NCBI GenBank assembly: GCA_009921465.1
Contig: RFXS01000007.1
Span: forward strand, 1-34,530
Direction: 5' to 3'
Origin: Betaproteobacteria bacterium
GTDB taxonomy: Bacteria > Pseudomonadota > Gammaproteobacteria > Burkholderiales > Burkholderiaceae_C
Length of the DNA: 34,530 nt
Each line of letters opens with the position of its first letter. Position 1 is the stretch's first letter. Position numbers and translations under genes: made by a program. Positions 6,378 through 26,632 of this stretch are shown piece by piece. The notes below the pieces were generated by a model, which saw nothing but the letters and a program-made list of their open reading frames with translations, made no database searches and was not told the origin of the DNA.

Positions 6378-6803
6378 TCACGGTTTTCCAAAAATGGCAA
6401 CGCCTGCTGTGATGGCCGCTTTGGTCAAATCTGTGTCCAATGTGGCCAAAGGCAGCCCTTTGCGCATAGACAGCTCCAAGTAGGTCGCATCGTAAGCAGA
6501 CAGCTTGAAGCGCCGAGCCAGTTGAAGAATGTCCCCCAATGCCTGCACCCCTGTGGTGAGATCGGTCTCAATGTTCAAGCCTGCAAAGAGGGCCACAAAG
6601 CGTTGCGATTCAACTTCCTCGACGATGCCCTTGGCTTCTAACTTGGTGATCACATTGGCGATTTCCAATGCGCACAACGAAGGCACGACCGCCTGCCCTT
6701 CCTTGAGCGCCATCAAAGTGGCTTGGGCATACGCGATGCCTTTCGGGTTGGTCTGTGGCACGAACCAAAGCAGGGCCACAGAAGCGTCCAAAACGAACGT
6801 CAT
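6378..6803 (-). CDS. vapC: PIN-domain toxin ribonuclease (VapC-type)
   Basis: A 141-residue PIN-domain endoribonuclease. The acidic metal-binding residues are D6 (FVLDASVAL), E47 (CALEIANV), D105 (SAYDATYLE) and D123 (ATLDTDL), the full catalytic quartet. VapC toxins cut tRNA or rRNA and are silenced by their partner antitoxin. It overlaps the antitoxin gene by 4 nt (ATGA) as the second gene of the pair, the normal VapBC order. The site is intact, so it should be active. Its RNA target cannot be predicted. Confidence 0.9.
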   Translation of the reverse strand: MTFVLDASVALLWFVPQTNPKGIAYAQATLMALKEGQAVVPSLCALEIANVITKLEAKGIVEEVESQRFVALFAGLNIETDLTTGVQALGDILQLARRFKLSAYDATYLELSMRKGLPLATLDTDLTKAAITAGVAIFGKP

Positions 6804-7045
6804 TCCCGCCCTTCTTTGATCAATGCTTTGAGGTTGAACGAGGCCGCGGATTTGCGTTTTTTCATGAATGCCAGCATGTCATCCACTGCAGCCCCTTTGT
6901 CAGGAGTGGTGTCAAAGTGAGCGGGCACCAGTTCAGCCACAGCCTCACCCCTGAGGGTGATGGTGTAGTGATTCCCCGCCTGCACCCCGCGCAGCAACTC
7001 CGGCAATTTGGTCTTGGCTTCGTAAGAACCCACTTTGATGTTCAC
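6800..7045 (-). CDS. Phd/YefM-type antitoxin paired with the PIN toxin
   Basis: An 81-residue antitoxin. The start is GTG at 7045, 7 nt after a GGAGA ribosome-binding site; longer in-frame readings extend through the putative promoter and lack a site. The N-terminal half (VGSYEAKTKLPELLRGVQAG, then YTITLRGEAVAELVP) is the Phd/YefM DNA-binding and dimerisation fold. The C-terminal tail (FMKKRKSAASFNLKALIKEGRE) should wrap the toxin. Phd-type antitoxins often pair with PIN toxins in proteobacteria and repress their own operon, and a tandem repeat just upstream is a likely binding site. Confidence 0.88.
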   Translation of the reverse strand: MNIKVGSYEAKTKLPELLRGVQAGNHYTITLRGEAVAELVPAHFDTTPDKGAAVDDMLAFMKKRKSAASFNLKALIKEGRE

Positions 7046-7065
7046 AGCATTTCTCCAAGCATCGA

Positions 7066-7089
7066 TATAGACCAGTTTATAGACCAGTT
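7066..7089. repeat. Perfect 12-bp tandem repeat upstream of the toxin-antitoxin pair
   Basis: TATAGACCAGTT occurs twice, end to end, at 7066-7077 and 7078-7089. It begins 21 bp upstream of the antitoxin start. On the minus strand the second copy carries a TATA-rich stretch that may be the -10 element (TTGCAA, 18 bp, TATATC). The repeat is therefore a good candidate operator for antitoxin autoregulation. Confidence 0.6.
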
Positions 7090-7264
7090 GCAAGATGTCA
7101 AGTCTTTTGATGTTTTCACCTCGACAAGTCCCTATCTTGGTAACCCCAATGAGATACCCCCACCATGCCGGGATTGTCACCAGCGCCCGGAAACACGCAT
7201 GGCATAAGGCCTGCGCGCCTCACTCGACGAAAACTCCACTGTGTCGGTGGACGAGATCACCTGC

Positions 7265-8421: not shown

Positions 8422-9159
8422 TCAGGTGGCCGGTCCAGCGACGGTAACGCCGCGCACACCGTTGCGCTCGATGATTTGCGCCACCAACCCAGAGGACTTG
8501 GCCTGCTCCACAAATTGGCGCAAATACGCTGCGGCTGCACTGCCCCCTTTGGGCACGCCGATGGCTTGGCCAATGGCAGTGAAGCGCCCGTCCAAGATGC
8601 GCGAACCGGGCAGCTTGGCCTGCTCTTGTACCAAACGCGGGCGCAGGCCCGATAAGGCTTCCATGCCTTGGGCCACAAACTGCTCAAACGAGGCATCCAT
8701 GCTGGCCAATTGCACCAGTTGTGCGTGTTTGAGGCTGCGACTGAGGTACAGGTCGTAAGCGCTTTTGTGCATGACGGCAATGCGCACACCAGCACGGTCA
8801 ACGTCCTCGATGCATTGCAGTGGCGAATTGGCAGGCACCAAATAAGTGGCCTCGATCTCCAGGTACGGCGCCGAAAAATCTATCACGTTTTGGCGCGCAG
8901 GCTCGACCGCCAGCAAGGCCATGTTCCACACGCCGCTTTGCGCGGCGTCGGCCATTTCACCCGGTGTGGCATATGGGAAGAACTCAATGGGCACGCCAAT
9001 TTGACGCGCCACTTCGCGGGCCAAATCGGGCGCAATGCCCTTGGGATCTTGTTGCGGGTCTTTCATGCTGACCAACAAAAAATTGGCCAGATTCAAACCA
9101 ACTTTCAGGGTGCCTTGGGGGGCGAGTTCTGCGCGAACGCTGTCGAGCGTTGGGGTCAT
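8422..9159 (-). CDS. Family-3 (amino-acid type) solute-binding protein without signal peptide
   Basis: A 245-residue protein with the SBP_bac_3 fold: GTLKVGLNLANFLLVS, DLAREVARQIGVPIEFFPY, IDFSAPYLEIEATYLVP and a C-terminal AIGQAIGVPKGGSAAAAYLRQFV segment. From the preferred ATG at 9159 the protein starts directly with the mature domain. A longer frame to 9243 adds a His/Cys-rich, non-hydrophobic stretch that is not a signal peptide and overlaps the soxXA gene. It therefore seems cytoplasmic, and no ABC permease or ATPase is adjacent. Such proteins may be ligand sensors or may have adopted enzyme activity, as cyclohexadienyl dehydratases have. Its role is unknown. Confidence 0.8.
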   Translation of the reverse strand: MTPTLDSVRAELAPQGTLKVGLNLANFLLVSMKDPQQDPKGIAPDLAREVARQIGVPIEFFPYATPGEMADAAQSGVWNMALLAVEPARQNVIDFSAPYLEIEATYLVPANSPLQCIEDVDRAGVRIAVMHKSAYDLYLSRSLKHAQLVQLASMDASFEQFVAQGMEALSGLRPRLVQEQAKLPGSRILDGRFTAIGQAIGVPKGGSAAAAYLRQFVEQAKSSGLVAQIIERNGVRGVTVAGPAT

Positions 9160-9199: not shown

Positions 9200-10369
9200 T
9201 CAGCGTCGCACCGACGGCCCCTCCAGGGGCATGCCGTTGGCACGCACTTTCAAATACAGCTCCAGGCTGCGCAAAATGGCGCTGCCAGGCTCGGGCATCG
9301 CGGACTGTACGCCAGAGTAACAAGCCCGAAGGCGGCGGTCCATGCCGCCGGCTTGTTGCCAGGACACGCGATAAATGGGAAAGCCCGTTGGGTGGCCGGG
9401 GCTGATGGTGTCGCCGCGCATTTGCGCACCCACGCGCTGATCGTGGCAGTGCGCACACGAGAGGTTCATGCGGCCTTGCCGGGTTTGGTAATGATTGGCG
9501 CCCGCCTGCCACTGCGCTTGCCAAGCCGCTTGCTGCGCAGGAAGCGCTTGCACGGCGATGGGCTCACCACGGGCCGCATGGTGCAAGGCCGCACTCAAGG
9601 CCAACACGCTTTCATCGGGCCGGGCGCTGGAAGCACCTTGGCGTTGGCGGCACAGGCCAATTTGGTCATCGAGGTTGCGCAGGGTCTGCCCATCGGGGCC
9701 CAACTTGGGGTATTGCGCCACGGCTTTGCGCATCTCCTGCACTGGCCCATGGCAGGACTGGCAACTCGGGCCGCCACTAGTTTGACCCCATGCCGCCAAG
9801 CCGCGCTCAATCCACAGGCTCATGGGGTTGGCCATGTCGTCATCGTTCATTTGGCGCAGGCTGGGCGACAAAAAAGCCAAGCCACTTTGACGCGCGCCAG
9901 GGGTTGCGTTTGCATGAGCCATCGGTTCAGTCACACGGGCCGCAGCCGCATTGGGCGAAGCCGATGCAGTTGGCATGGGTGAAATGGCCGTGCGCTGTTG
10001 CAAAGCCAGCACCACCGCGTCAATTTGCTCAGCGCTGAGCACCGCTTGGACAGGCGCAGGTTGGCGCAGGCCGCTCACCGTGCCAAACACCGGCATCAAG
10101 GTGTCGGGCCGCAAATGGCGTGCATCGACCAACCATTGCCGCAACTGAGTTGCGCTGTAGCGTTGCGCCACCCCGTCCAGGGCTGGTGCAAAGGTGCTGG
10201 TGGAGGCTGGTGTCGCCTGCCATGCATGGCAAGCCCCGCAGTTGCCCAGGCTGCGCTCGGTGATGATGCGCCAGCCCAGTTCGGCACTGGCTTGAGCACC
10301 GATGGCCACGCCCAACCACAACATCCAACCAGCGCCAAGGCGCAGGGTTTGCATCCAAGGCTGGGTCAC
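9200..10369 (-). CDS. soxXA: SoxX-SoxA fusion, triheme c-type cytochrome (thiosulfate-oxidation type)
   Basis: A 389-residue exported cytochrome joining two normally separate Sox subunits. After a signal peptide (RLGAGWMLWLGVAIGAQA), residues ~30-125 are SoxX: GNCGACH haem site (C44/C47/H48) and TLMPVF with the Met92 ligand. A ~35-residue Ala/Pro-rich linker leads to SoxA: haem sites C203-QS-C206-H207 and C305-AH-C308-H309, the axial-Cys motif GLCRQ (C240), and RACYSGV with Cys350 at the persulfide-forming position. SoxXA links thiosulfate to the carrier protein SoxYZ in the periplasm. The GTG at 10369 gives a 4-nt overlap with the upstream stop and has AGAGGG before it; an ATG at 10354 is possible. 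No soxYZ, soxB or soxCD is in the window. Confidence 0.88.
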   Translation of the reverse strand: MTQPWMQTLRLGAGWMLWLGVAIGAQASAELGWRIITERSLGNCGACHAWQATPASTSTFAPALDGVAQRYSATQLRQWLVDARHLRPDTLMPVFGTVSGLRQPAPVQAVLSAEQIDAVVLALQQRTAISPMPTASASPNAAAARVTEPMAHANATPGARQSGLAFLSPSLRQMNDDDMANPMSLWIERGLAAWGQTSGGPSCQSCHGPVQEMRKAVAQYPKLGPDGQTLRNLDDQIGLCRQRQGASSARPDESVLALSAALHHAARGEPIAVQALPAQQAAWQAQWQAGANHYQTRQGRMNLSCAHCHDQRVGAQMRGDTISPGHPTGFPIYRVSWQQAGGMDRRLRACYSGVQSAMPEPGSAILRSLELYLKVRANGMPLEGPSVRR

Positions 10370-10926
10370 GCTGCCCTCTGGGTCTCGGCCAAATCGTTCC
10401 AAACCTCTTGCCGCGTCAACTGGCCATTGACCACTTCAAAGCGGTCGATGAAACGGATGCCTTCAAAGGAAGTGCCGTCATTCCAAACGCCAAACAATGT
10501 GCCGCTGCAATACACCACGGTGGTGTCACCTTGCCAACATTCATCAAAACGGTCGTAGTGCTTGCCCACTGAGCGGTAGCGCGGCTTGGCCCATTCCATC
10601 AACTGCTCCAAGCGGTGCATCACCGCATCGCCTGGAAAAACCATCTCAAAGCCCGGTGCCAAAAAACTTTGTGCCTGGGCCAAGTTGCGCGCGGCCATTG
10701 TTTCCAAAAAGCTTTTGACGCGGGCACTTGCGTCAGGCACCACGGTTGCGCCAGCGGCATAGACTTTGCCATCGCGCCGATAGGTGCTGGCTTCGTTGAT
10801 GAAAACAGTGGTGCCCGCATCGCTGGCTGACACCACCGAGCGGGCGGTATCGGCCAAGCGTTGCACCAAACGGTGCTGGGCTTCCACTGGGTAACCAGGC
10901 AACAGCGTGACAGTGATCACAGGCAT
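10366..10926 (-). CDS. Tautomerase-SnoaL (NTF2-like) fusion protein
   Basis: A 186-residue, two-domain protein. The N-terminal ~60 residues are 4-oxalocrotonate-tautomerase-like: the protein begins Met-Pro, giving the catalytic N-terminal proline after Met removal, then VITVTLLPGYP and GTTVFINEAS. Residues ~65-180 are a SnoaL/NTF2-like domain (RVKSFLETMAARNLAQAQSFLAPGFEMVFPG, then YCSGTLFGVWNDGTSFEGIRFIDRFEVVNGQL). Both halves typically bind small hydrophobic or keto compounds. The gene overlaps soxXA by GTGA and follows the NnrU gene by 24 nt. The connection to a Sox cytochrome is not explained by known Sox biology. Confidence 0.82.
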   Translation of the reverse strand: MPVITVTLLPGYPVEAQHRLVQRLADTARSVVSASDAGTTVFINEASTYRRDGKVYAAGATVVPDASARVKSFLETMAARNLAQAQSFLAPGFEMVFPGDAVMHRLEQLMEWAKPRYRSVGKHYDRFDECWQGDTTVVYCSGTLFGVWNDGTSFEGIRFIDRFEVVNGQLTRQEVWNDLAETQRAA

Positions 10927-23451: not shown

Positions 23452-26409
23452 TCACGCCCGCTCAATATTGCAAACGGTGGTCTTGGTCTCTTGCATCATG
23501 GTCACGCTGTCGTAACCATAAGTGGTGGCTGTATTGACCGCCTCGCCACGCACCACCGGCGCCGCGCCATTGGGGTAGTGCGCGAGCATGTCAGCACCTT
23601 GCCAACGGCCTGAAAAGTGGAAGGGCAAGAACACGGTATCGGGACCCACCCGTTCGGTGACCATGGCCATGACCTTGATGCGCGCCCCCGTCGGGGTGCT
23701 GACCCAGACTTGCTCGCCATTGCGCACCCCCCGGTCGGCGGCGGCCTTGGGGTTGAGCTCCACAAACATGTCTTGCTGCAACTCGGCCAGCCACGGGTTG
23801 GAGCGGGTTTCTTCGCCGCCACCTTCGTACTCGACCAAACGGCCTGAGGTCATGATCAGCGGGTACTTTTCGTGCACCTTGTCGGCGATATTTTTGTCTT
23901 GCACGGTCTTGAACAAAGTGGGCAAGCGCCAGAAGGCTTTTTTGTCGTCGTGGGTGGGGTACTTGGCCATCAGATCAGGCCGGTTGCCATACAAGGGCTC
24001 GCGGTGCTGGGGGATGGCGTCGGGGAAGTTCCACACCACGGCCCGTGCCTTGGCATTGCCAAACGGGTGGCACCCATGGTTTTGCATGAACACGCGGATC
24101 ATGCCGCCCGAGCTGTCGGTCTTCCAGTTTTTGCCTTCGGCCGCAGCCTTCTCTGCATCGTTGAGCTCGTCCCACCATCCTAGTTTTTTAAGCAGCACAT
24201 GGTCCAACTCGGGGTAGCCGGTGGTGATGTCTGCACCCAATGAATGCGACCCGTCTTCGGCCAACAAACTCTTGCCTTCGCGCTCGACGCCGAAGTTGGC
24301 GCGGAAGTTACCTCCGCCGTCCATCACGTGCTTGGAGGTGTCATACAGATTGGGCGATCCGGGGTGTTTGAGCGCCGGTGTGCCCCAGCACGGCCAAGGC
24401 AAGCCAAAGTAATCGCCGGTGAAGTCGTACCCCGTGGCCGCGTCTTTGCCGCCTTTGGCCTTGAGGGTTTTGACATCAAACAAATGCATGTTGCGCATGT
24501 GCGCTTGCAGCCGCTCAGGGCTTTGACCGGTATAGCCAATGGTCCACACGCACTTGTTGATTTCGCGCAAGATGTCATCGGGCACAGGCTCGTCCAAGCC
24601 TTTGACCTTTTGCATTTTGTAATTTTTGACCAGTTCTTTATCGAACCCCAACTTTTGGGCCAACTGGTACATGATCATGTGGTCGGAGCGGCTCTCCCAC
24701 AGGGGATCAATGACTTTTTCACGCCACTGCAGTGATCGGTTGGAAGCCGTGCAAGAACCGCTGGTCTCAAACTGCGTGGCCGCAGGCAACAGGTACACCG
24801 CGCGGTTGGGGTTTTTGTCTTCGGCCTTGCCCGGCATGGCCGCCATGGCCGCTGTGGCCGATGGGTAGGGGTCCACCACCACCAACAAATCGAGCTTGTC
24901 CATCGCCCGCTTCATCTCCAAGCCACGGGTTTGTGAATTGGGCGCGTGCCCCCAAAAGAACACCCCGCGCAAATTGCTGTCTTGGTCGATGAACTCGTTT
25001 TTCTCCATCACGCCGTCAATCCAGCGCGAGACGGTGATGCCCGGCTTGCTCATCATGGCCGGGGCCGAGAAACGGCCCTTGATCCACTCAAAATCCACGC
25101 CCCAGCTTTTGGCGAAGTGCTTCCAAGAGCCTTCTACCAGGCCGTAATAGCCGGGCAGTGAGTCGGGGTTGGGGCCCACATCGGTGGCACCTTGCACGTT
25201 GTCGTGGCCGCGGAAGATGTTGGTGCCACCACCTGACTTGCCCACATTGCCCAAGGCCAATTGCAAGATGCAAGAGGCGCGCACCATGGCGTTGCCAATG
25301 GTGTGTTGGGTTTGGCCCATGCACCACACAATGGTGCCAGGGCGGTTTTCGTGCAGCCAGGTGGCGACCTTGAGCATTTGTTCGGGCTTGACGCCACAAG
25401 CCTCTTCCACCTTGTCGGGTGTCCATTTGGCGAGCACGTCTTCTTTGACCTTGTCCATGCCATAGACACGGTCGTTGATGTATTTTTTGTCTTCCCAACC
25501 ATTTTTGAAGATGATGTGCAGCAAGCCAAACAGAAAAGGAATATCAGAGCCCGAGCGGATGCGCACGTACTCGTCGGCCTTGGCCGCCGTGCGGGTAAAG
25601 CGCGGGTCAACCACGATCATCTTGGTACCCGTTTCTTTGGCATGCAGCATGTGCAGCAAGCTGACCGGGTGGGCCTCGGCAGCGTTGGAGCCAATGTACA
25701 AAGCGACTTTGCTGTTTTGCATGTCGTTGTACGAGTTGGTCATCGCACCATAGCCCCAGGTGTTGGCCACGCCAGCTACGGTGGTGGAGTGGCAAATGCG
25801 CGCTTGGTGGTCACAGTTGTTGCTGCCCCAAAAGCTGACAAACTTGCGCAGCAAATAAGCCTGCTCGTTGTTGTGCTTGCTCGAACCCACCCAATAAATG
25901 GAGTCTGGTCCGCTGGTTTTGCGCAGTTCAAGCAGCTTTTCGGAAATTTCATTGAGCGCCTGGTCCCAACTGATGCGTTGGTACTTGCCGTCAACCAACT
26001 TCATGGGGTAGCGCAGGCGAAACTCACCATGGCCGTGTTCGCGCAACGCTGCACCCTTGGCGCAATGCGCACCCAAATTGATGGGCGAGTCAAACACCGG
26101 TTCTTGGCGCACCCACACACCGTTTTCAACCACTGCATCGACCGCACAACCCACCGAACAGTGTGTGCACACGGTGCGCTTGACCTCGATCTTGCCCGAG
26201 CCATCGCCCTTGTTGGGCCCTGCGGCTTGGGATTTTTTCACCAAGGTCAACTGGCTGGCCGCCAGACCCACGCCCACGCCCAAACCGGAGCGGCGCAAAA
26301 AGGCACGCCTGTCCATGGTGGGAATGGCTTGGGCCAAGCCGCGCTGCAAGCGGTGCACAAAGGGTGAGCCTGCGCGCTGGGTGCTGTCGGATTTTTTGGT
26401 CAGTAGCAT
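23452..26409 (-). CDS. TAT-exported formate dehydrogenase catalytic subunit (Mo/W-bis-MGD, Cys type)
   Basis: A 985-residue molybdopterin oxidoreductase. A TAT signal DRRAFLRRSG (R34/R35) is preceded by an unusual ~31-residue extension. The proximal 4Fe-4S cluster ligands are C81, C84, C88 and C116. The active-site segment DHQARICHSTTVAG gives Cys206-His207 where E. coli FdnG has selenocysteine; the codon is TGC. The conserved Arg needed for formate is expected further on in the molybdopterin domains. The ATG at 26409 has GAGGA 6-7 nt upstream; an internal ATG at 26316 would place the TAT motif at the usual N-terminus. It follows the small TAT protein by 13 nt. Together with the beta and gamma subunits it should form a periplasm-facing formate:quinone oxidoreductase. 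Confidence 0.95.
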   Translation of the reverse strand: MLLTKKSDSTQRAGSPFVHRLQRGLAQAIPTMDRRAFLRRSGLGVGVGLAASQLTLVKKSQAAGPNKGDGSGKIEVKRTVCTHCSVGCAVDAVVENGVWVRQEPVFDSPINLGAHCAKGAALREHGHGEFRLRYPMKLVDGKYQRISWDQALNEISEKLLELRKTSGPDSIYWVGSSKHNNEQAYLLRKFVSFWGSNNCDHQARICHSTTVAGVANTWGYGAMTNSYNDMQNSKVALYIGSNAAEAHPVSLLHMLHAKETGTKMIVVDPRFTRTAAKADEYVRIRSGSDIPFLFGLLHIIFKNGWEDKKYINDRVYGMDKVKEDVLAKWTPDKVEEACGVKPEQMLKVATWLHENRPGTIVWCMGQTQHTIGNAMVRASCILQLALGNVGKSGGGTNIFRGHDNVQGATDVGPNPDSLPGYYGLVEGSWKHFAKSWGVDFEWIKGRFSAPAMMSKPGITVSRWIDGVMEKNEFIDQDSNLRGVFFWGHAPNSQTRGLEMKRAMDKLDLLVVVDPYPSATAAMAAMPGKAEDKNPNRAVYLLPAATQFETSGSCTASNRSLQWREKVIDPLWESRSDHMIMYQLAQKLGFDKELVKNYKMQKVKGLDEPVPDDILREINKCVWTIGYTGQSPERLQAHMRNMHLFDVKTLKAKGGKDAATGYDFTGDYFGLPWPCWGTPALKHPGSPNLYDTSKHVMDGGGNFRANFGVEREGKSLLAEDGSHSLGADITTGYPELDHVLLKKLGWWDELNDAEKAAAEGKNWKTDSSGGMIRVFMQNHGCHPFGNAKARAVVWNFPDAIPQHREPLYGNRPDLMAKYPTHDDKKAFWRLPTLFKTVQDKNIADKVHEKYPLIMTSGRLVEYEGGGEETRSNPWLAELQQDMFVELNPKAAADRGVRNGEQVWVSTPTGARIKVMAMVTERVGPDTVFLPFHFSGRWQGADMLAHYPNGAAPVVRGEAVNTATTYGYDSVTMMQETKTTVCNIERA

Positions 26410-26422
26410 GGGTTGTCCTCGT

Positions 26423-26632
26423 TCAGACGCGGGTGGTTTGGTAGTAACGCTTGACGTGTTCACTCAAGCTGTATCCGCCCCCATTGGGTGGGGCGGGGGG
26501 CAAACTTTCTGTGCTGGGCAAGGGCGCGGTGTCCAGCGCCTTGACGCCCGCCACGGTGGCCACCGCAGCACTGGCTGCAGCCGCACCCCAGAAAAACCCG
26601 CGGCGTGAGGTGGGCAACTGTTCGTTGTTCAT
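26423..26632 (-). CDS. Small TAT-signal protein of formate dehydrogenase regions
   Basis: A 69-residue protein with a TAT-type motif (TSRRGFFWGAAAASAAVATVAG) and a short C-terminal part (GGGYSLSEHVKRYYQTTRV). It fits the family described as formate-dehydrogenase-region TAT target (TIGR02811-like) in length and ending. The start at 26632 has GGAG 8 nt upstream. It lies directly before the catalytic subunit, with 13 nt between. The hydrophobic stretch may be an uncleaved anchor, making it a candidate small membrane subunit or assembly partner that could replace the missing anchor helix of the beta subunit. That role is inferred. Confidence 0.85.
   Translation of the reverse strand: MNNEQLPTSRRGFFWGAAAASAAVATVAGVKALDTAPLPSTESLPPAPPNGGGYSLSEHVKRYYQTTRV

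Follow-up and report, generated by a model that had tools for sequence, protein, structure and literature searches.

Does a single gene of a betaproteobacterial genome encode SoxX and SoxA as one polypeptide, and which pathway would such a protein serve? The window, by which we mean the whole analysed stretch of 34,530 nucleotides, carries one uninterrupted frame on its minus strand (9200-10402) that contains both proteins. An earlier note had described this SoxX-linker-SoxA fusion without naming the strand, and the open frame and the domain models confirm it; no Sox protein was seen in frame 1 of the plus strand of 9200-10369. The ATG at 10354 is the first one past the stop codon of the upstream gene (10366-10368). 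The encoded protein begins with a signal-like stretch, followed by the SoxX haem domain, a linker rich in Ala and Pro and finally a dihaem SoxA domain; three CXXCH haem motifs are present in the frame (Table 1). It is probably exported by means of its N-terminal signal sequence, and no second signal peptide was seen by eye in the linker ahead of SoxA, as had been stated before.

Table 1. Features of the fused soxXA gene and its direct neighbours in the window (residue numbers count from the ATG at 10354)
Feature	Position	Strand	Basis or remark
Fused SoxXA coding sequence	9200..10354	-	ATG start, 384 aa, stop included; alternative starts GTG 10369 and TTG 10402
Putative Sec signal peptide, residues 1-24, ending AQASA	10283..10354	-	Hydrophobic N-terminus and AxA-like site by eye; AF2 helix 5-32
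SoxX-like monohaem domain, residues 25-121	9992..10282	-	TIGR04485, 56.0 bits against a cut-off of 61; matches to 1h31_B and 2c1d_B
SoxX haem site CGACH, residues 39-43	10226..10240	-	Both Cys and His invariant in the 8 genus fusions
Met87 in TLMP, putative distal SoxX haem ligand	10094..10096	-	Aligns with TVMP of 1h31_B; invariant in the 8 genus fusions
Ala/Pro-rich linker, 36 residues, TAISPMPTASASPNAAAARVTEPMAHANATPGARQS	9884..9991	-	pLDDT <50 at residues 125-151
Dihaem SoxA domain, residues ~158-384	9203..9883	-	TIGR04484; 1h31_A by sequence match and by Foldseek
SoxA haem 1 site CQSCH, residues 198-202	9749..9763	-	Alignment with solved SoxA
Cys235 in GLCRQ, putative haem 1 ligand	9650..9652	-	Aligns with Cys of NACRTSR in 1h31_A; alignment of the 8 genus fusions
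SoxA haem 2 (active-site) CAHCH, residues 300-304	9443..9457	-	Alignment with solved SoxA
Cys345 in RACYSG, putative active-site ligand	9320..9322	-	Aligns with Cys of FRGCIRD in 1h31_A; alignment of the 8 genus fusions
Upstream neighbour, 186 aa, weak tautomerase N-terminus	10366..10926	-	Adjoins XA also in G066 and G086
Downstream neighbour, SBP_bac_3 protein	8422..9159	-	Adjoins XA also in G066 and G086

The SoxA model TIGR04484 of NCBIfam matched residues 193-400 of the 400-aa frame with 169.4 bits (cut-off 110). The corresponding SoxX model matched residues 52-133 of the same frame just below its cut-off, which the fusion of a relative (G009) exceeded with 78.7 bits. Among solved structures, the SoxA half matched 1h31_A (E 2.4e-31) and 2c1d_A (E 4.2e-28), and the SoxX half matched 1h31_B (E 1.9e-12) and 2c1d_B (E 2.6e-11). 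The SoxAX proteins of Rhodovulum sulfidophilum (1h31) and Paracoccus pantotrophus (2c1d) resemble the fused protein in sequence, fold and the ligand residues of both subunits, but they consist of separate chains. They act in the canonical thiosulfate pathway together with a GGCGG-type SoxY and SoxB. The CXXCH and Met of SoxX, both haem sites of SoxA, and the Cys residues of GLCRQ and RACYSG all align with these structures, and the proposal of a dihaem SoxA domain with an intact Cys in RACYSGV is borne out by the alignment with 1h31_A. We take Met87 to be the distal ligand of the SoxX haem and Cys235, as in dihaem SoxA, to be the ligand of haem 1; Cys345 is presumably the ligand of the active-site haem. 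Judged from its sequence, the fused protein appears to qualify as a SoxAX by its SoxA domain and by the CXXCH and Met of its SoxX part.

An AF2 model of the fused protein, calculated without haems, has a pLDDT of 72.7 and a pTM of 0.60 with a low-confidence linker, and a model of such quality is too weak for judging how the domains dock. A Foldseek search with this model matched the SoxA structure 1h31_A with E 4.4e-11. The SoxX fold match was weak (E 4.5e-3 for 2c1d_B, to 1.5e-2). The TsdA fold was not the best match in this search (TsdBA 5lo9, E 0.027 with an rmsd of 22 Å; TsdA 4wq7, E 0.16).

All 84 genomes offered for the host genus were searched with SoxXA, and 65 of them matched at E 1e-17 or better. 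X and A share one frame in eight genomes. Clade A comprises the fusions of the window, G066 (CANFPJ010000007) and G086 (RFNL01000344), the latter two being MAGs whose SoxXA is 81 and 80% identical to that of the window; clade B comprises those of G092, G003 (where a contig end cuts the frame), G009, G001 and G100. The remaining SoxA frames of the genus have at most 357 aa. Because the linker is in frame in all eight fusions, a missed frame break is ruled out and the earlier claim of a true fusion holds. Misassembly is ruled out by the recurrence of the frame and its neighbours in G066 and G086, and confinement to one organism by the eight genomes that carry the fusion. The dN/dS values among the three clade A species are 0.055-0.113 in both domains, indicating purifying selection, and those of clade B reach up to 0.246. 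Between the clade A species, pN across the linker is 0.49-0.58: the linker sequence varies freely, and the reading frame is kept. Linker lengths are comparable only roughly, the boundaries having been set by two slightly differing rules. The window's assembly is 57.6% complete in 223 contigs and the partner genes were not found in it, which could be taken as a sign of an assembly error or a decaying pseudogene; with the same frame in two more MAGs, such low dN/dS values in clade A and intact ligand residues, this explanation retains next to no probability.

Outside the genus, a fusion with three CXXCH motifs was also found in two of 369 class genomes besides the window's own (G796, locus L177, and G602, locus L178), both of which belong to other families. 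Four more class entries that spanned X and A had in-frame stops, and on reading, SoxA lay in a separate frame in all four. No SoxX was present within the SoxA frame in 11 other class entries with long frames or in loci L172-L176, with G548 counted in both groups; all other class entries were assessed by frame length alone, and some class frames were shorter on re-reading than in the first search (e.g. G626, G719 and G579). In an order sample of 399 genomes, the fusion profile gave matches of 1e-40 or better in 52, of which only the window's own entry spanned both domains. A reading of 29 loci and five additional long frames from the order showed no SoxX within the SoxA frame. In locus L017 (G025; 1100-2235), the matches to soxX and soxA are in different frames with about 130 bases between them, possibly a picture of the state before fusion. 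The homologue count that had been proposed earlier accordingly finds the fusion in 8 of 84 genus and 2 of 369 class genomes, and the fusion is not unique to the window.

The architecture as such is already known. Passages of PMC8877833 describe a trihaem protein of thiosulfate-using Halorhodospira in which SoxX is joined to the N-terminal end of SoxA, and a fused SoxAX of Beggiatoaceae is reported in passages of PMC11172852. The Halorhodospira protein is like that of the window in that a single chain carries SoxX ahead of a dihaem SoxA. The view that the two proteins occur solely as separate subunits is not supported, and because these two fusions have been described, the earlier claim of novelty largely falls as far as the architecture is concerned. 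The passages concerned also list SoxB in the Halorhodospira and Beggiatoaceae lineages, whereas the family of the window is found in clusters with IorAB and another type of SoxY. In the tandem operons of Thioalkalivibrio, according to passages of PMC6382920, soxX lies directly 5' of soxA as a separate gene, and the word "fused" is absent from the main text of this paper. The interest of the present fusion lies in its SoxB-less, Mo-linked setting.

In the window, soxXA lies among unrelated genes, and soxYZ is not adjacent to it there, in G066 or in G086. An SDR gene is a further neighbour common to the window and G066, and the G086 contig ends before this point. Homologues of the 186-aa upstream gene in 11 other genus genomes had no XA within about 1.5 kb. 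Elsewhere on the minus strand, the window encodes a 1003-aa molybdopterin oxidoreductase with an Fe4S4 domain (23452-26463), whose Pfam families differ from those of IorB, and two small adjoining genes (6378-7180) that by eye resemble a PIN-domain toxin and its antitoxin. Neither SoxB nor SoxZ was found in the window's own genome, and its best IorB match had only 29% identity; because the assembly is so incomplete, these absences decide nothing. Since no close partners were found there, their probable existence is deduced from G066 and G086. G066 has iorA-iorB-soxY-soxZ without adjoining X and A, on a contig separate from that of XA (L061), and IorB is present in G086 (92% identical).

The relatives' cluster consists of iorA (2Fe-2S), iorB (molybdopterin), soxX, soxY, soxZ and soxA in varying order, and its SoxA is dihaem. 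The order iorA-iorB-X-Y-Z-A is seen also in Limnohabitans records, and in clade B the fused XA is convergent to iorAB-YZ (L032, L033, L065 and L066). We examined 48 relatives' loci with flanks of up to 6 kb, often ended by contig ends, and found IorB in 30, IorA or IorB in 31 and SoxZ in 41 of them. SoxB was found in none of the 48 when one SoxB reference was compared with these stretches of 3-13 kb. Seventeen loci had neither IorA nor IorB, many of them at contig ends. The Mo partner is thus not always there: L105, L106, L108 and L110 have X-Y-Z-A but no Ior, although at least about 4 kb of sequence flanks the genes on both sides. In L105 (4862-6747), L108, L110 and L093 (where SoxA alone was detected), large genes on the opposite strand follow, which by eye look like a 2-oxoacid:ferredoxin oxidoreductase set. 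Sets of iorA-iorB-soxY-soxZ without adjoining soxX or soxA, which we call r-type, occur in L062 (G066), L063 (G032) and L069 (G017); their genomes also have another Ior-Sox set, and one SoxXA may serve two carriers there. The MAG records of L088, L101, L110 and L113, titled Akkermansia muciniphila or Bordetella parapertussis, carry betaproteobacterial-like SoxA, so their titles look wrong or their bins mixed, as judged from the X+A tree for three of them and from the match to Limnohabitans-type genes for L088.

These counts bear on the idea of a free-standing, TsdA-like thiosulfate dehydrogenase, in which SoxXA would join pairs of small thiols or of thiosulfates with no SoxYZ involved. The lack of an adjacent soxYZ in all three clade A genomes would suit such an enzyme, and the Cys-ligated domain is common to SoxA and TsdA (PF21342 SoxA-TsdA; passages of PMC4423706). 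However, both NCBIfam and the fold search identify SoxA, with thiosulfate dehydrogenases far behind in the latter, SoxZ accompanies most of the relatives' loci, and G066 keeps soxYZ together with iorAB. We therefore regard this idea as improbable.

The partners differ from those of canonical Sox systems. SoxY of the relatives has C-x-[DE] near its end, mostly ACxD, in every non-canonical sequence inspected, a set that includes repeats from one genome; ACLDQT, ACFDET and ACMDAS are among the C-termini found. SoxY of G092 aligns with solved SoxY as far as the Cys. The best NCBIfam match of five partner-type SoxY was TIGR04487, the "SoxY-related AACIE arm protein" (four scored 108-122 bits, that of L034 66 bits), yet all scores are below its cut-off of 172 and the ends are not AACIE. 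The best solved relative of IorB from G100 is 8gy3_C (E 1e-65), the large subunit of a Mo-dependent aldehyde dehydrogenase, and the relatives' clusters also encode the FeS small subunit (IorA). The 8gy3 enzyme presumably has a cytochrome subunit of its own, in place of which the relatives have SoxX-Y-Z-A beside IorAB. The four canonical operons of the genus that were read (L148-L151) hold soxC, soxY ending in GGCGG, soxA, soxX and soxB together, and the relatives' loci contain neither SoxB nor a GGCGG arm of SoxY.

Ordinary thiosulfate oxidation would nevertheless be conceivable if the fused SoxXA replaced SoxAX and loaded SoxYZ, with SoxB supplied from a canonical operon elsewhere, as in Halorhodospira and Beggiatoaceae. 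The active-site Cys and neighbouring basic residues align by eye with 1h31, the fusion is published in thiosulfate users (passages of PMC8877833), and SoxB is found above the cut-off in 37 of 61 genus genomes, including G066 (L150), where it could cooperate. The canonical operons that were read, however, already contain a soxX and a soxA next to soxB and the GGCGG-type soxY, the SoxA of L148 being monohaem, and the relatives' loci lack SoxB. Among the 61 genomes, 29 have both SoxB and dihaem SoxA, 8 SoxB alone, 16 this SoxA alone and 8 neither, as counted by hand with SoxB over its cut-off and SoxA at E 1e-17 or better in genomes many of which are incomplete. This SoxA is thus present in 16 of 24 genomes without SoxB and missing from 8 of 37 with it. 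In 10 of 14 control genomes, too, the SoxB model gave matches below its cut-off. A contig end truncates the SoxB of G079, one of the 16, and four of the 16 (G005, G014, G015 and G064) are at least 97% complete. SoxB and the dihaem SoxA of this family do not go together, and we consider the thiosulfate explanation rather unlikely. The role in thiosulfate activation suggested in the earlier note finds no support in the SoxB-less cluster of the relatives with its non-GGCGG SoxY and Mo hydroxylase.

The fused genomes have a mosaic ancestry. We designate the unfused relatives around L034 and L072-L082 as p-type and those around L040 as s-type. In the X+A tree, which 56 of 57 chosen loci entered (L093 was left out because it had no SoxX match), all eight fusions lie inside a group with p-type genes (25 sequences, support 100/100), and joining their XA with four s-type sequences was rejected (AU p 6e-62). 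In the IorB tree, from which 10 of the 38 collected sequences were left out, IorB of the fused genomes groups with s-type (94/97), and joining it with p-type was rejected (AU p 3e-4). Joining their SoxYZ with p-type was just rejected (p 0.046) in a tree with long-branch warnings, from which L189 and, for SoxZ, L190 were left out and whose outgroup did not form one side of a branch. Because the XA and IorB trees place the fused genomes differently, a p-type XA now stands beside an s-type IorAB.

The number of fusion events was considered from the same trees. In the X+A tree, clade A stands next to the unfused L073, L074 and L078 (89/74), and an unfused group adjoins clade B (81/77). A single clade of genus fusions was nevertheless not rejected (AU p 0.252 for X+A and p 0.33 for IorB). 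In the YZ tree, G066 goes together with clade B (92/85). Because the mosaic is common to the fused genomes, one origin within the genus would be favoured rather than two, although the trees do not settle between them. A clade uniting the genus fusions with L177 and L178 was rejected (AU p 1.06e-5) in a quick tree that gave a long-branch warning at L177 and left out L011 and L028 as long branches, and the genus fusion seems to have arisen independently of these class fusions. The SoxXA of L028 (G016) groups on a long branch with two loci whose records are titled Beijerinckiaceae and Rhizobiales (L107 and L114; support 100/99), and it was perhaps acquired from outside the genus.

The frequent partnering with a Mo enzyme of the xanthine dehydrogenase family might also mean that SoxYZ and SoxXA deliver or repair sulfur, supplying the terminal sulfido ligand of the Mo site of IorAB with no substrate being degraded. 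However, sulfuration of the Mo enzymes of this family is cytoplasmic and precedes export, XYZA clusters without IorAB exist, and so do IorAB-YZ sets without adjoining XA (the r-type sets). An analogy can be drawn with the SoxYZ-like carrier that, together with a rhodanese-domain protein and a SoxH-like protein, accompanies PQQ dehydrogenases (TIGR04557; passages of PMC12997753). That system is similar in that a Sox-like carrier stands with a dehydrogenase of organic substrates, but its Y and Z are fused and its company is PQQ enzymes and a SoxH-like hydrolase according to the same passages, which make no mention of SoxXA. Sulfur delivery seems distinctly improbable to us. None of the matches listed in a search of open-licence papers was a paper linking SoxYZ to such a Mo hydroxylase.

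We therefore favour, with some reserve, the reading that the gene encodes a real single-chain trihaem cytochrome of the SoxAX type, with SoxX tethered to dihaem SoxA, which serves a SoxB-less, Sox-like carrier pathway and not the canonical thiosulfate Sox pathway. The electron route, the substrate and the location of IorAB are what we infer rather than observe. The Cys-ligated haem of SoxA would link a sulfur compound oxidatively to the Cys at the C-terminus of the SoxY-like arm, which is mostly of the ACxD type and would be carried together with SoxZ. Electrons would exit via the haem of SoxX, and the Mo hydroxylase IorAB may oxidise the carrier-bound or released product, replacing the chemistry of SoxB and SoxCD. 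The flexible tether would set X and A at 1:1 without subunit assembly. A broader proposal, which we rate somewhat below an even chance, is that SoxXA, ACxD-type SoxYZ and IorAB constitute a distinct SoxB-independent pathway across the genus and order, in which a sulfur substrate, possibly an organic one, is passed in covalently bound form from the carrier to the Mo hydroxylase. The fused SoxXA would then be a module complete in itself that has been transferred from one such system to another.

If true, this would be a new use of Sox carrier chemistry, in which SoxXAYZ is kept without SoxB or the GGCGG arm and is combined with a Mo hydroxylase. Counts of soxA, soxX, soxY and soxZ in such bacteria may then overstate thiosulfate oxidation. 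A natural single-chain SoxXA would also be a convenient object for three-haem electrochemistry.
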